Shown one piece after another: positions 9,237-51,370 of a stretch of 64,000 nt of DNA (the stretch's first letter is position 1; every line of letters begins with the position of its first letter). The notes beneath the pieces are model-generated. The model searched no databases, had not been told where the DNA came from, and saw only the letters and a list, made by a program, of their open reading frames with translations. The DNA lies in the NCBI RefSeq assembly GCF_003403075.1, contig NZ_CP031557.1, forward strand, positions 2,666,001 to 2,730,000, given 5' to 3'. The stretch is from Flavobacterium psychrotrophum (lineage in GTDB: Bacteria; Bacteroidota; Bacteroidia; Flavobacteriales; Flavobacteriaceae). The position numbers and the translations under genes were made by a program.

Positions 9237-10322
9237 ATGGAACAGTTTATTGTATCAGCCCGCAAGTACCGCCCCCAAACGTTTAAAGACGTTGTGGGTC
9301 AGCAGGCTATTACAAATACACTGCTAAATGCCATAGAGAGCAACCACTTAGCACAGGCACTGTTATTTACCGGGCCCCGTGGTGTGGGTAAAACTACCTG
9401 TGCGCGTATCCTGGCTCGTAAAATAAATCAGGAGGGTTATGACGACCCTTATGAGGATTTTGCCTTTAACGTGTTTGAGCTCGATGCTGCCAGTAATAAC
9501 TCGGTAGACGATATCCGCAGCCTTATAGACCAGGTACGCATACCGCCACAAACGGGTAAATACAAAGTGTACATTATAGATGAGGTGCACATGCTCTCTC
9601 AGGCCGCTTTTAACGCGTTCCTTAAAACGCTCGAAGAACCGCCTCGCCACGCCATTTTTATACTGGCTACGACAGAGAAGCACAAGATTATACCTACCAT
9701 ACTTTCGCGCTGCCAGATATTCGATTTTAAGCGTATAACGGTTAAGGATGCTAAAGAGCACCTTGCCGAAGTAGCGCGCAGCCAGGACATTACTTTTGAA
9801 GATGATGCCCTGCACATTATTGCCCAAAAGGCAGATGGTGCCATGCGCGATGCCCTGTCTATATTTGACCGTGTAGTAAGCTATTGTGGCAAGAACCTTA
9901 CACGACAGGCTGTTACCGAAAACCTGAACGTACTCGATTATGAGTACTACATTAAGGTAACCGACCTGATATTAGAAAACCGTATCCCGGACTTGTTACT
10001 TGCTTATAATGATATTCTTGCAAAAGGTTTTGACGGTCACCACTTTGTAGCCGGGCTTGCCAGTCACTTCCGTGATTTGATGGTATGCCAAAACCCTGCT
10101 ACGCTGGTGCTTTTAGAAGCCGGCGAAGTGGCGCAGAATATGTACCGTGCCCAAAGCCAGAAAGCCAGCCAGGCATTTTTGCTACAGGCCATAGATATTG
10201 CTAACGACTGCGACCTTAAGTATAAAGTAAGCCAAAATCAGCGCCTTTTAGCTGAGCTTTGCCTTATGCAGCTTGCCTCCATCACCTTTGATGGAGAAAA
10301 AAAAAAGTTGACGGGTTTATAA
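9237..10322 (+). CDS. dnaX: DNA polymerase III gamma subunit (zero-frame dnaX product)
   Basis: 361 residues: the AAA+ clamp-loader ATPase core. Walker A is GPRGVGKT (46-53), Walker B is about YIIDEVHML, and sensor 1 lies in ATTEKHKIIPTILSRCQ with the arginine finger. The four-Cys zinc module usual after Walker A is absent; the segment reads INQEGYDDPYEDFAFNVFELD instead. The frame ends four codons after an A10 run. A -1 shift at A AAA AAG (10301-10307) joins it to the open frame 10307-10990, giving a tau-like product of about 584 residues. So this gene either makes gamma and tau by frameshifting or slippage, or carries a one-base sequence error. Confidence 0.9.
   Translation: MEQFIVSARKYRPQTFKDVVGQQAITNTLLNAIESNHLAQALLFTGPRGVGKTTCARILARKINQEGYDDPYEDFAFNVFELDAASNNSVDDIRSLIDQVRIPPQTGKYKVYIIDEVHMLSQAAFNAFLKTLEEPPRHAIFILATTEKHKIIPTILSRCQIFDFKRITVKDAKEHLAEVARSQDITFEDDALHIIAQKADGAMRDALSIFDRVVSYCGKNLTRQAVTENLNVLDYEYYIKVTDLILENRIPDLLLAYNDILAKGFDGHHFVAGLASHFRDLMVCQNPATLVLLEAGEVAQNMYRAQSQKASQAFLLQAIDIANDCDLKYKVSQNQRLLAELCLMQLASITFDGEKKKLTGL
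10301..10307 (+). promoter_or_regulatory. dnaX slippery heptamer A AAA AAG
   Basis: Zero-frame codons are GAA AAA AAA AAG TTG ACG GGT TTA TAA. Slipping back one base after AAG gives GTT GAC GGG TTT ATA ATT CCC and continues open to 10990. The heptamer is the one used by E. coli dnaX and by IS3-type transposases. The A10 run (10297-10306) is also long enough for transcriptional slippage. A purine-rich GGAG lies a few bases upstream; no clear downstream stem was found by eye. Confidence 0.6.
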
Positions 10323-10990
10323 TTCCCCCTCATTATTTTAAAGATGTTGTTTTGGGCAATGTACCCCTGCAGCAGCAAAATATCACACAACCTGCGGCTC
10401 AGCCAACTGTAGCCGAAGAAAAGCCGGCTACGATAACACCACTGCCTGCCGCCGAACTTGAGGTAGAAACACCCGAAGTTGTAACACCAGCGGTTGTTAA
10501 GCCACAACCTCTTGATGATGGTTCGCCCCGTGTAAGTGCGTTTTCTTTATCTAGTATCAGGCAAAAGCGTGAGTTGCAGGAAAACCATAAAGCCATTATT
10601 CGCCATAGCGAAGAAATGCCAAAACAGGCCTTTAGCGAAACCGATATGCGCCTGCTGTGGAACAAGTTTGCACAGCGCCTTAGCGACAGCGGCCAAAAAA
10701 TCATGTCTACCTACATGATGATAAACGATCCTTATCTTGATGCTAATGGTTCTACGATAAGGCTGGAGTTACCTAACGAAGGCAGTAAGGTAGATTTTGA
10801 TGCAAGCAAACTGGAACTTGTGGGCTACCTGCGGGGTAAGCTGCACAACCACGACATTATGGTAGAAGTGCATGTAAATGAAACAACATCTACCCGCCAC
10901 GCCTTTACTCCCGAAGAAAAGTACAATAAGCTTAAAGCTATGAACCCGGCGTTAGAAAGCTTACGCAAGATGTTTGACCTTGACTTTTAA
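10307..10990 (+). CDS. dnaX: tau-specific C-terminal region of dnaX (-1 frame)
   Basis: 227 codons, open without a stop from the slippery site, starting VDGFIIPPHYFKD. A Pro/Ala/Val-rich linker (QQQNITQPAAQPTVAEE onward) is followed by a folded C-terminal domain, FSETDMRLLWNKFAQRL to LRKMFDLDF, typical of Bacteroidota DnaX C-termini. The only start codon for a separate gene would be a TTG at 10352, inside the conserved IIPPHYFKD segment, so it is best read as part of dnaX and not as its own gene. Confidence 0.8.
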   Translation, partial: VDGFIIPPHYFKDVVLGNVPLQQQNITQPAAQPTVAEEKPATITPLPAAELEVETPEVVTPAVVKPQPLDDGSPRVSAFSLSSIRQKRELQENHKAIIRHSEEMPKQAFSETDMRLLWNKFAQRLSDSGQKIMSTYMMINDPYLDANGSTIRLELPNEGSKVDFDASKLELVGYLRGKLHNHDIMVEVHVNETTSTRHAFTPEEKYNKLKAMNPALESLRKMFDLDF

Positions 10991-39733: not shown

Positions 39734-41137
39734 ATGAGTATGAATTTGAGTCACGAGGAAGAAGATCGCAGTTTATCCTTATCAAAGTTCGAATCGATGT
39801 TGAAAACCAACAAAGTATTCTTCTTTGACTCTGAAGAGTTTGAAGATATTATACTTCATTATCTCGACAGCGGTAAAATTAATTTAGCTAAGAAGGCCTT
39901 AAAGCTCGGCCTGGAGCAACACCCCAGGTCAACAGGTTTAAAATTAGTACAGGTTGAAATTTTAGTTTTTGACGACAAGCTTGAGCTGGCAGAAAAATTG
40001 CTCAATGAACTCTATGCTATAGAGCCTACAAACGAAGAAATATATATACAAAAAGCCAATATTTACAGTAAGCGCGACCAGCATGAAAAAGCGGTAGAGC
40101 ACTTAGAAATTGCCCTTAAATATACCGATGACCTTGCCGATGTGTATTCATTACTGGGTATGGAGTATCTGTTTATGGACAACCTTGAAAAGGCGAAAGA
40201 GAATTTTATAAAGTGTCTTGAAGAAGATACAGAGGACCATTCTGCGCTTTACAACGTAGTGTATTGTTTTGACTTTTTGGACCAGAACCTGGAAGCCATT
40301 GTTTTTTTAAACGAGTTTATAGACAAGAATCCGTATAGCGAAGTGGCATGGCATCAGCTTGGCCGCCAGTATTATGCCATTAAAGAGTATGAACAGTCGC
40401 TACGCGCATTTGAATATGCTACGCTTATAGATGAAAGTTTTTTGGGTGCATTTCTTGAAAAAGCAAAGACACTGGAAAAACTAAAGCGTTATGAAGACGC
40501 GATAGACTGTTATAATACTACTATGGAGCTTGATGACCCTACGTCTTTTGCGCTGCTTCGTGTAGGTAAATGTTATGAAAGGCTTGGAAATCGTGAGAAA
40601 GCGCTTAAGTTTTACCTTAAAACGGTGCATGAAGATCCGCTTTTAGACAAAGCCTGGATAGCAATAACAGATTTTTATATTCGCCTTAAGAATTACCAAA
40701 AGGCGCTATATTATGTAAATAAGGCTATAGGCATAGATAACGAAAATAAGTTGTACTGGAAGCGCTATGCTACCATAAACAACGCGCTTAACTTTTATGA
40801 GGAAGCCGAAGAAGGTTACCGAAAAGCTGTAGAGTTTGGCGATTACCAGCTTGATACCTGGTTGTTTTGGATTGATACATTACAACAGCTTGGAGAGTTT
40901 GATACTGCTATTGCAACACTTTTGCAGGCAGCCGAATATTATGACGAAGAGCATGAGGTAGAATATCGCCTTGCAGCACTGTACCTTAGACAGCAGGAAC
41001 TTGATAAAGGTGTTTTTCACCTTAATAATGCTTTGAGGCTTAATTACAGACAACACACCTTGCTGGAAGAATATTTCCCAGATGTATTTTTAATGGACAT
41101 CGTTCAGGACGAAATGAAAAAATACAGAAAAAAATAA
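39734..41137 (+). CDS. Tetratricopeptide repeat protein
   Basis: 467 residues made almost wholly of TPR units (about ten), each with the A..Y...G..YEKAI..Y pattern, for example LADVYSLLGMEYLFMDNLEK and LRVGKCYERLGNREKALKFY. No signal peptide or enzyme domain is visible. It is probably a cytoplasmic scaffold. The acidic N-terminal 45 residues are not repeats. It is monocistronic between a 146-bp leader and a terminator. Confidence 0.88.
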   Translation: MSMNLSHEEEDRSLSLSKFESMLKTNKVFFFDSEEFEDIILHYLDSGKINLAKKALKLGLEQHPRSTGLKLVQVEILVFDDKLELAEKLLNELYAIEPTNEEIYIQKANIYSKRDQHEKAVEHLEIALKYTDDLADVYSLLGMEYLFMDNLEKAKENFIKCLEEDTEDHSALYNVVYCFDFLDQNLEAIVFLNEFIDKNPYSEVAWHQLGRQYYAIKEYEQSLRAFEYATLIDESFLGAFLEKAKTLEKLKRYEDAIDCYNTTMELDDPTSFALLRVGKCYERLGNREKALKFYLKTVHEDPLLDKAWIAITDFYIRLKNYQKALYYVNKAIGIDNENKLYWKRYATINNALNFYEEAEEGYRKAVEFGDYQLDTWLFWIDTLQQLGEFDTAIATLLQAAEYYDEEHEVEYRLAALYLRQQELDKGVFHLNNALRLNYRQHTLLEEYFPDVFLMDIVQDEMKKYRKK

Positions 41138-41471
41138 CTTAACAAATAGTTTTTATACTTGCCCTGTTTCTCTTAGAAACAGGGTTTATTTTTTTTTTAG
41201 ATCTGCACCAAAGCCTGTGAAGCGACTAGTCTTTACAACCAAATCCTGCACCTGCGTTTAGAAAAAGGCCATTAATAGAAATATTGGCATCTTATAATGT
41301 TACGGTAATCACTTCCTACTAAGCCTCAATATTATAAATGATTATGGCCTTTTGCCAATGGTTCTAACGTTGCTAAAGGCAAGCCTTGTCTTGCCGGTAA
41401 GCCAGTGAGCACATGCACAAACAGCTAATTTCTCGTGTCTGCCGGTTGTTAATAGCATCACGTTAAAAATT
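41138..41471. other. Intergenic region with terminator, no gene seen
   Basis: 334 bp between two convergent genes. CCCTGTTTC / GAAACAGGG (41162-41184) followed by a long T tract is the terminator of the TPR gene. The rest (41200-41471) shows no open frame of note, repeat or promoter. Confidence 0.7.
41162..41198 (+). terminator. Terminator of the TPR gene
   Basis: 9-bp perfect stem CCCTGTTTC / GAAACAGGG with loop TCTTA, then TTTATTTTTTTTTT. Confidence 0.93.
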
Positions 41472-48862: not shown

Positions 48863-49894
48863 GTTGCACCAGTCTGGAAGTAATAGTGGAAGTGTAAATG
48901 CTAATCTTAATAAGGTTGGTAAAACATATCTGCTTAAAAAAGTAAATACTGCCCTTGGGGGTAGCTGGACACTTGAATATGAAAAGAATGATAATACCTA
49001 TGACCTCCCTCAAAACAAATGGGTACTAAGTAAAGTTACAACACATGACGGTTTTACCGGAAGCGGGGCAGATACTGCATTTGGGCCGGATATTACCAAA
49101 ACATCTTTTAAGTATGCCAGCCCGAAATATGACCGTAGGGAACGGGAGTTTTTAGGTTTTGGTACCCTAACTACAAAACAACTAGACCCATCAAACGAAG
49201 TGGTGTTTCGTACCGTTATTAATTATTACTATAACGAAAATATTTACCTGAGCGGGCTTGCTAAAGGATCTGCAACCTATAACAGTGCTAACCAGCTTTT
49301 GGCTAACCAGAGCACGCTTTATAATATTCTTAATCCTGATGCACCAGTAGTAAATTTAAATGCGGAGAGTAATAATTATATTCAACTTAACCTTGCTCCA
49401 TCTTTATTAGACAAATCAAGGCTATTTGTTGCGATGGTAAAAACAACCTCAGGTTCATATGAAAATGGGCAGGCGCAGGTATCAGTAAAAACAGTACAAG
49501 CCTATAACAACACAGGTAATATTACGTCTTACATAGACGGGGGAAGCAGCCATGAAGATAGCTACAGGACTGCCATTGAGTACCATCTTGCCAGTTCGTT
49601 TGAGCAATCAGCCATGACAGGATTTCCTAGTAAAATATCGGTTTACAAGTATAGCAACAACCAGCTAATGCGTCAGCGCAGCGCTTCATATAATACTAAG
49701 GGCAGCATGATGCAAATTGTTACAAAGCTAAATGCTACCGAAGATAATACTGTTGTTTTTGGATATGACGCTTACGGTAACCTCAATAAGGTAACCGAAA
49801 ATGATAATAAGAATAGTACTAACACAACAATGTAAGCTCCCCCAAAAATAGTACAGTTTAAAAGTAGAATTTTTATTAACTTTAAACTGTAATT

Positions 49895-50161
49895 ATGAAG
49901 ACTAGTAAATTTAATCCCACCCAGATCGCCAAGATCCTCAAAGAGTTTGAATCGGGCAAAGATGTTGATACCATAAGCCGTGAGCATGGAGTCAGCAAAG
50001 CTACTTTTTATAAATGGCGGCAGCGTTATGGCGGTATGGAAGCCAGCGAACTTAAGCGGTTAAAAGCCCTTGAAGAGGAAAATGCCAAGCTTAAGCGTAT
50101 GTATGCCGACCTTGCCCTTGAACTGGACATGGCAAAATATATCATCGAAAAAAAGCTTTAA
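49895..50161 (+). CDS. IS3-family transposase OrfA
   Basis: 88 residues with a helix-turn-helix of the HTH_Tnp_1 type ([20 protein letters not shown], about 29-48). It is followed by a leucine-zipper-like helix ([20 protein letters not shown]) used for dimerisation. It ends directly after the slippery site A AAA AAG (50149-50155), where a -1 shift gives the OrfAB transposase. Confidence 0.92.
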
Positions 50162-51042
50162 AGCCTTGCCATAAAAGAACCATTGTAACCGACCTGGCTT
50201 GTGTTTACCCTAACGGCAAAAGCAAGGCTTGCCGTCTCTTACAGACCAGCCGGAGCAGTTTATCGTACCTCTCGGTAAAAAATGATACAGGTCTTATTGA
50301 ACGCCTTGAAGGCTTTGCAAAAGACCATCCCCGCGAAGGCTTTTGGAAGTGCTATTACCGCCTGCGCAATGGTGGTGATAAGGTAAACCATAAACGCCTG
50401 CACAGGGTGTATAAGCAACTTGGGCTTCCGTTACGCAGGAAGGTAAAGAAACGCCTGCCTGCAAGGGTTAAGGAAGCTATAGTTATACCTGAGAGCTTTA
50501 CCCACACCTGGAGCATCGACTTTATGAGCGACAGCCTGATGGGCGGCAGGAAGTTCCGCAGCTTTAATGTAATTGATGACTATAACAGGGAAGTTTTGTT
50601 TATTGAGACAGATTATTCTTTGAAGAGCCGCCGCATAATATGGGTTTTAAAACACCTCACAAACCGGCATGGCAAGCCAAAACGGATACGAATGGACAAC
50701 GGGCCGGAATTTGTTGCTAAATTGGCTCAGGAATGGAGTGCTATAATGGATATTGAGTTTAAGTATACCCAGCCTGGGAAACCTACACAGAACGCCCTTA
50801 TAGAACGCTTCAATAAAACCTACAGGGAGCATGTGCTGGATGCACATCTTTTTGAGAGTATCGATGAGGTAAGGGATATCAGCCACCAATGGGTGGAGGA
50901 CTATAACAACCACCGGCCTCATGATGCCCTGGGGGGAATCAGCCCGAGCGCCTATAGAATAAAAAACAATACAGTTGATGGGCTTCGTTCCGCTACGGCT
51001 ACGCCTTCACTACACTCAGCCCATCAACTGTTAGAAACATAA
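50155..51042 (+). CDS. IS3-family transposase OrfB (made as OrfAB by -1 frameshift)
   Basis: About 295 codons, open from the slippery site; the ATG-less 5' part shows it depends on the frameshift. The rve integrase fold has the DDE triad: Asp in TWSIDFMSD, Asp in RMDNGPEFV and Glu in [13 protein letters not shown]. The C-terminus [19 protein letters not shown] is the family's usual end. No stops interrupt it. Confidence 0.92.
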
Positions 51043-51370
51043 GATCGGAAATAACAGTATTTTTTATACTTTTAAATCGTACTAAAAAAGGGAAGCCTAC
51101 AACAAGCTATGTAAAGAATTTGACATATGACAGTATACTTTACACCTATCCAACAGGAGTAAATAATTCTTTTGGAGAAACTTCATCTACAGCCTACAAT
51201 TATCTTTTTGGAATACCCGTATTTACAACAGATAAAAATGCGCAGTCTATGCGTACACGTATTGATAACCGTGGCCGTATTATAGAAGTTACAGGGCCAA
51301 ATGAGCTCGCCCTTGAAACTTCGTCAAATAAAACATGGACTATTCGTATGCAATATAAGGGGGAACCGTC

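Follow-up and report, generated by a model that had tools for sequence, protein, structure and literature searches.

A poly-A run in dnaX of Flavobacterium psychrotrophum and its relatives points to probable production of gamma and tau by RNA-polymerase slippage

We analysed a stretch of 64,000 nucleotides of the Flavobacterium psychrotrophum genome (hereafter, the window) and observed that its dnaX gene is divided between two reading frames that meet at a run of ten A's (A10). Judging from sequence, this one gene probably gives rise to both gamma and tau by slippage of RNA polymerase on the run, a reading to which we assign a probability of about 0.8. The gene spans positions 9237 to 10990 on the + strand and contains the following features.

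9237..10322, + strand: zero frame of dnaX with the ATPase part, giving a gamma-length product of 361 aa that ends in EKKKLTGL (open reading frame; TIGR02397 dnaX_nterm, E 5.3e-115)
10297..10306, + strand: A10 run, the proposed slippage site (from the sequence; A10 in 105/109 genus-level loci)
10301..10307, + strand: A_AAA_AAG heptamer, in phase with the zero frame, where ribosomes may also slip by -1
10309..10311, + strand: hidden TGA that shuts the +1 frame, met by mRNAs with 9 or 12 A in the run
10320..10322, + strand: TAA that closes the zero frame, lying inside the tau codons TTT-ATA-ATT (Phe-Ile-Ile)
10307..10990, + strand: -1-frame tail of tau, 227 codons and a stop codon (at 10988-10990)

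The junction reads ...GATGGAG-AAAAAAAAAA-GTTGACGGGTTTATAATT..., with the A10 run at G000:C1:2676297-2676306 of the genome, a G as the base that follows it and 13 bases between the run and the zero-frame TAA. GGAG, which belongs to the Asp-Gly-Glu codons, abuts the run with no gap. Past the run, the +1 frame of the window stops after 1 codon and the zero frame after 5. The predicted products measure 361 aa (40.7 kDa) and 584 aa (65.9 kDa), and the predicted junction peptide of tau is KKKVDGFIIPPHYFK. A sequence-only reading of the window had described an A10 run with A_AAA_AAG, a gamma frame stopping at 10322 and a -1 frame open for 227 codons, and each of these was found again in the sequence. 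It had also proposed a polarity opposite to that of E. coli, and this holds: gamma lies in the zero frame and tau needs a shift.

The -1-frame tail had been taken for a true tau C terminus, and both a profile match and homology to tails fused in frame 0 bear this out. The NCBIfam model PRK14971 (gamma/tau, 614 positions) aligned its positions 1-369 with the first open reading frame (E 5.8e-187) and its positions 413-612 with the -1-frame tail (E 3.6e-23). Because each match covers a part, neither reaches the cut-off of the model (685 bits); since the model spans both, the two frames together make up one DnaX. Moreover, the tail of the window matched 64 of 77 frame-0 tails at an E value of 1e-3 or better, with 13 unmatched. 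Comparison with the tail of locus L002 gave 56, 40 and 126 differences at codon positions 1, 2 and 3, a third-position variation as in a selected protein. A Pfam search of the tail returned no match above cut-off, and a PDB profile search of it returned nothing convincing (best E 0.35). The nearest named relatives of the window's dnaX, at 93%, are those of F. supellecticarium, F. limnosediminis and F. beibuense (all Flavobacterium).

The run is conserved among close relatives. Searching 36 other genomes of the genus gave 34 full-length dnaX matches, one partial match and one genome without a dnaX match, and the first frame was 361-401 codons long in 33 of the 34 full-length matches and 609 codons long in the remaining one (G035). 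A comparison with dnaX of close relatives had been proposed as a check by the sequence-only reading; in the 30 genus junctions that were read, including that of the window, GGAG-A10-G was present in all 30 and tau lay in the -1 frame in 29. Among the distinct whole-genome loci of the genus, again with the window, A10 was found in 44/44 and tau in the -1 frame in 43/44. The larger genus-level set of 109 distinct loci, window included, had A10 in 105 and a run of A9-A11 in all 109, with tau in the -1 frame in 104 loci, in the zero frame in 4 and in the +1 frame in 1. This last locus (L104) has A9 and comes from a draft, and it could reflect a base-count error. Five metagenome bins (L072, L074, L105, L114 and L130) carry a dnaX 86-90% identical to that of the window under the titles Rhizobium, Sphingobacterium, Chitinophaga (two) and Bdellovibrio; they are probably mislabelled or mixed.

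We then scanned the junction in 244 loci, 233 of them distinct, within an alignment-anchored interval; 11 identical junction copies and L242 (100 bases) were left out, and L151, which is cut by its contig end so that its phase is unreliable, was left out of the counts that need downstream bases. A run of at least 9 A was present at the junction in 214/233 distinct loci overall, namely, in 207/212 of the window's class (A9-A12), which we take to be Bacteroidia in GTDB, and in 7/21 outside it. Elsewhere in 213 dnaX genes, a run of at least 9 A occurred once per 347,544 bases (one occurrence in total). Nine-A runs are neither rarer nor commoner in the A+T-rich window than its composition predicts (6 observed versus 7.67 expected from shuffles). 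A run of this kind therefore occupies the corresponding position in almost every relative examined, and the poly-A junction looks like a real device. A few of the run-length variants could be draft-genome errors. In L164 (G051, a 300-kb genome), the longest A run of the scanned stretch was A5 and the longest frame after it had 30 codons; here, both the device and the tail seem to have been lost or changed.

The frame that holds tau is not fixed. Among the 214 loci with at least 9 A, tau lay in the -1 frame in 131, in the zero frame in 78 and in the +1 frame in 5, numbers that are not rates, since short first frames guided the choice of some loci, and others were drawn from among the matches listed. 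A FastTree tree of 231 ATPase parts (L151 and L164 left out; one in-frame stop in the L160 row read as X) required at least 22 phase changes, 3 of them within the genus-level set, a figure that is an estimate because of the tree's long branches; the well-supported branches alone force at least 8 changes each for the -1 and zero states. Some of the changes are changes of run length (A9 in L165, A11 in L172, A10 in L145 versus A11 in its neighbour L146), and in others A10 is unchanged and the following bases are altered. Within the family, tau in the zero frame went together with A10 in all 27 loci from L033 to L059. Likewise, four genus-level loci (L012 of G035, L105, L114 and L123) keep A10 and have a -1 frame that stops at once; tau is in their zero frame because the bases downstream of A10 differ, which is the E. 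coli polarity inside the genus-level set.

Both frames other than that of tau are closed soon after the run. They stopped within 6 codons in 195/213 loci, which as relatives are not independent trials, compared to 15.9% of 4,260 random in-frame positions in the same genes. Closure was observed whichever frame holds tau (125/131 loci for -1, 65/77 for zero and 5/5 for +1). With a limit of 7 codons, the unclosed loci numbered 1/109 at the genus level (1/44 whole-genome and 0/65 other loci), 3/56 in the family (3/50 and 0/6), 6/17 in the order (one of them, L151, cut by its contig end), 3/25 in the class and 4/7 in other classes.

Codon usage next to the run shows how these stops are made. The motif x-Ile-Ile/Val-Pro was found in 150/213 loci and in none of the other 63. 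Its first Ile codon was ATA in 141/141 loci where it supplies the stop, against a background of 17.8% (5,912 Ile codons counted over the ATPase parts). In the nine loci where the frame was already closed, the codon was ATA in 3, ATC in 5 and ATT in 1. By tau frame, the 141 loci divide into 97 in -1, 40 in zero and 4 in +1. In the 97 loci, ATA forms the stop of gamma itself, which would be kept whether the mechanism is transcriptional or ribosomal. For loci with tau in the zero frame, ATA closes the +1 frame in 40/40 cases where it is needed, compared to 19.7% of the Ile codons of the same genes. When tau is in the -1 frame, the Val or Ala codon adjacent to the run ends in T in 90/98 loci, closing the +1 frame, against 43.7% of 5,571 Val/Ala codons elsewhere. 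From their sequences, the off-frame stops look selected, with codon choice keeping them in place.

The proposed mechanism is as follows. RNA polymerase copying the A10 run would produce mRNAs with runs of varying length. Messages with 10 (or 13) A would be translated into the 361-aa gamma, and those with 11 (or 8) A would fuse the tail to the ATPase part, yielding tau (584 aa with 11). Messages with 9 or 12 A would lead the ribosome to the hidden TGA and would also end in a gamma-length protein. The run, not the phase of the template, would then decide the outcome, so that the tau frame could drift over three phases while the off-frames were kept closed. By analogy, a run of about 10 A whatever the phase or the next base, with both off-frames shut, is what transcriptional slippage would be expected to require. 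It is from the observed anatomy, conservation, phase changes, closed off-frames and codon bias that we infer slippage in the cell, its rate and the resulting tau:gamma ratio. For the class as a whole, we favour with less assurance the view that dnaX has no fixed template frame: an ancestral run of A9-A12 would randomise the frame, tau would have drifted repeatedly among -1, 0 and +1, and selection would close the off-frames so that messages not encoding tau still give gamma. On this view, the reversed and the normal gene would be a single device seen in different phases rather than two separate kinds of dnaX.

The most serious competitor is a ribosomal -1 frameshift, in which the ribosome steps back one base on A_AAA_AAG to make tau. 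It was the key device of the sequence-only reading, and we consider it improbable as the main source of tau, since the conserved element proved to be the A9-A12 run instead. The genus keeps features that a ribosomal shift favours, and these count against slippage: among genus loci, the heptamer is in the right phase in 99/104 of those with tau in the -1 frame, the window included, and 101/109 carry an SD-like motif in the 20 bases upstream (absent from that interval in 8/109). An IS3 element in the same window seems to use the heptamer with only seven A's. Outside the genus, however, the in-phase heptamer was present in just 7/28 loci with tau in the -1 frame, and it was missing from 88/105 loci in all. 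With tau in the zero frame, the corresponding counts were 4/4 in the genus versus 10/73 outside it, and 58 of these 73 loci have no A_AAA_AAG because a T or C follows the A run. The SD-like motif becomes less frequent with distance from the genus, a point in favour of slippage: it was found in 44/56 loci in the family, 5/17 in the order, 9/25 in the class and 1/7 elsewhere.

RNA folding also failed to reveal a strong hairpin downstream. The fold energy of the 50 bases after the site ranged from 0 to -10.3 kcal/mol in 25 chosen genus loci, with 0.0 kcal/mol in 4/25, compared to -19.7 kcal/mol for E. coli K-12. The mean fold z-score (25 loci, 50 bases) was +0.47, versus -0.12 for control windows; we used the raw energies alone, because the site of E. 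coli did not stand out by z-score either (-0.2 to -1.4). In addition, tau lies in the +1 frame in five loci, the run is held at about 10 A and the third frame is closed. Closure of the third frame would be left unexplained by a ribosomal -1 shift acting by itself, and such a shift never enters the +1 frame that ATA closes in the 40 loci with tau in the zero frame. A ribosomal slip at the in-phase heptamer may thus add tau in the genus, but it is not the device shared by the class, since an in-phase heptamer is mostly lacking outside the genus.

Other explanations fare far worse than slippage of RNA polymerase. A split gene, with the tail translated apart from a start codon of its own after the end of gamma, would fit two frames with overlapping ends, yet an in-frame ATG, GTG or TTG occurs within the first 20 tail codons in only 8/104 genus loci with tau in the -1 frame (27/104 for the first 40), and the tail is fused in frame in 77 other loci; with no conserved start codon, we rejected this very improbable arrangement. 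Phase variation, in which replication slippage would toggle tau between cells, is equally hard to credit: the homopolymer is long and a few loci differ in its length (A9, A11, A12), but the run is constant at A10 in the 44 whole-genome genus loci, and switching tau off would harm the cell, given that replication generally depends on it. Finally, an error of sequencing or assembly hiding an A11 run and a continuous gene, which the sequence-only reading held to be the main competitor given that one extra A would fuse the frames, would suit the error-prone nature of homopolymers but is ruled out for practical purposes by the relatives, with dozens of further genomes sharing both the A10 and its phase (A10 in all 44 whole-genome loci of the genus) and with L012, L105, L114 and L123 reaching tau in frame 0 from A10 through a downstream difference.

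We also looked at other runs and slip sites in the genome. The IS3-like element mentioned above lies at window positions 49840-51050; its orfA and orfB (integrase) frames meet at A_AAA_AAG (seven A, 50149-50155), as the sequence-only reading had stated, and it likely uses a ribosomal -1 frameshift. Runs of at least 10 A occur at 19 places on both strands of the 4.84-Mb genome (21 matches, two pairs overlapping). Counting stop-to-stop frames only, 5 of the other 18 runs are crossed by a frame of at least 225 codons on the same strand and 4 by a frame of at least 345 codons on the opposite strand. The A10 runs of L263 (inside a 604-codon frame), L258, L261 and L248 are crossed by long frames, and slippage there would give shortened proteins. 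In L264 (bases 448-1813), the frame changes at an A10 run (1001-1010; G000:C1:4254598-4254607): one frame ends about 40 codons past the run, with a likely continuation in another frame. Its product is a membrane protein that, by eye, resembles an O-antigen polymerase or ligase; slippage, phase variation or a base-count error may each lie behind the frame change. The window has one further run of ten, a T10 on the + strand within 41150-41198; by eye, it follows an inverted repeat past a gene end at 41137 and looks like the tail of a terminator.

Several known dnaX systems resemble that of the window. As in E. coli (K-12, L246), two products are predicted from one gene with an A_AAA_AAG site, but in E. 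coli tau is in the zero frame and gamma is made by the shift, the reverse of the window. The E. coli mechanism is ribosomal, with six A's and then a G, an SD-like sequence located further upstream and a strong downstream fold. Slippage at dnaX of T. thermophilus was reportedly described by Larsen et al. in 2000. In the sections of two papers on which we draw, T. thermophilus dnaX has A9, and an mRNA whose run length is not 9+3n soon runs into a stop (PMC1088944, PMC5009743). To the extent covered there, the window's gene is similar in its run of at least 9 A and in the close stops of both off-frames, whereas in T. thermophilus tau is the zero-frame product and slippage was measured; in the window gamma occupies the zero frame and the case is made from sequence.

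Reversed dnaX has already been described (Antonov et al. 2013, PMC3711429), and the window's gene is a further case. The portion of that paper on which we draw lists 17 such genes from 12 genera, nine of them with ten A, and predicts transcriptional realignment; it regards orthologues that do not keep the direction of the shift as a mark of this process (Antonov et al. 2013, PMC3711429). The window's genus may be among their genera. Like the genes described in that portion, the window's dnaX has A10, gamma in the zero frame and a tau that needs a -1 shift; its zero frame ends at gamma length after the poly-A run and its tail is homologous, and tau is likewise in the -1 frame in 104/109 genus-level loci. 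All 17 genes shift in the -1 direction, whereas here all three phases occur; the same portion makes no mention of closed off-frames. In Chlorobium and Chloroherpeton, tau also needs a shift, according to the relevant extracts, at runs of A7-A9 that are shorter than the window's A10 (PMC3711429, PMC5009743); ribosomal stimulators are suggested there for Chlorobium phaeobacteroides. A class-wide, phase-indifferent dnaX pattern was absent from the titles and abstract openings of the open-licence papers searched.

If slippage is true, dnaX would be seen in many genomes of the class as a short gamma plus an orphan tail, or else as a continuous tau, and either annotation would miss some of the gene's output. 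The phase changes provide a natural experiment, with the same run and a different tau frame in sister species: full shuffling of the frame by RNA polymerase would give comparable tau:gamma ratios in such species, and a ribosomal -1 shift would give very different ones. The finding touches, too, on the question whether gamma is required in its own right, because selection appears to act on the off-frame stops that terminate it.
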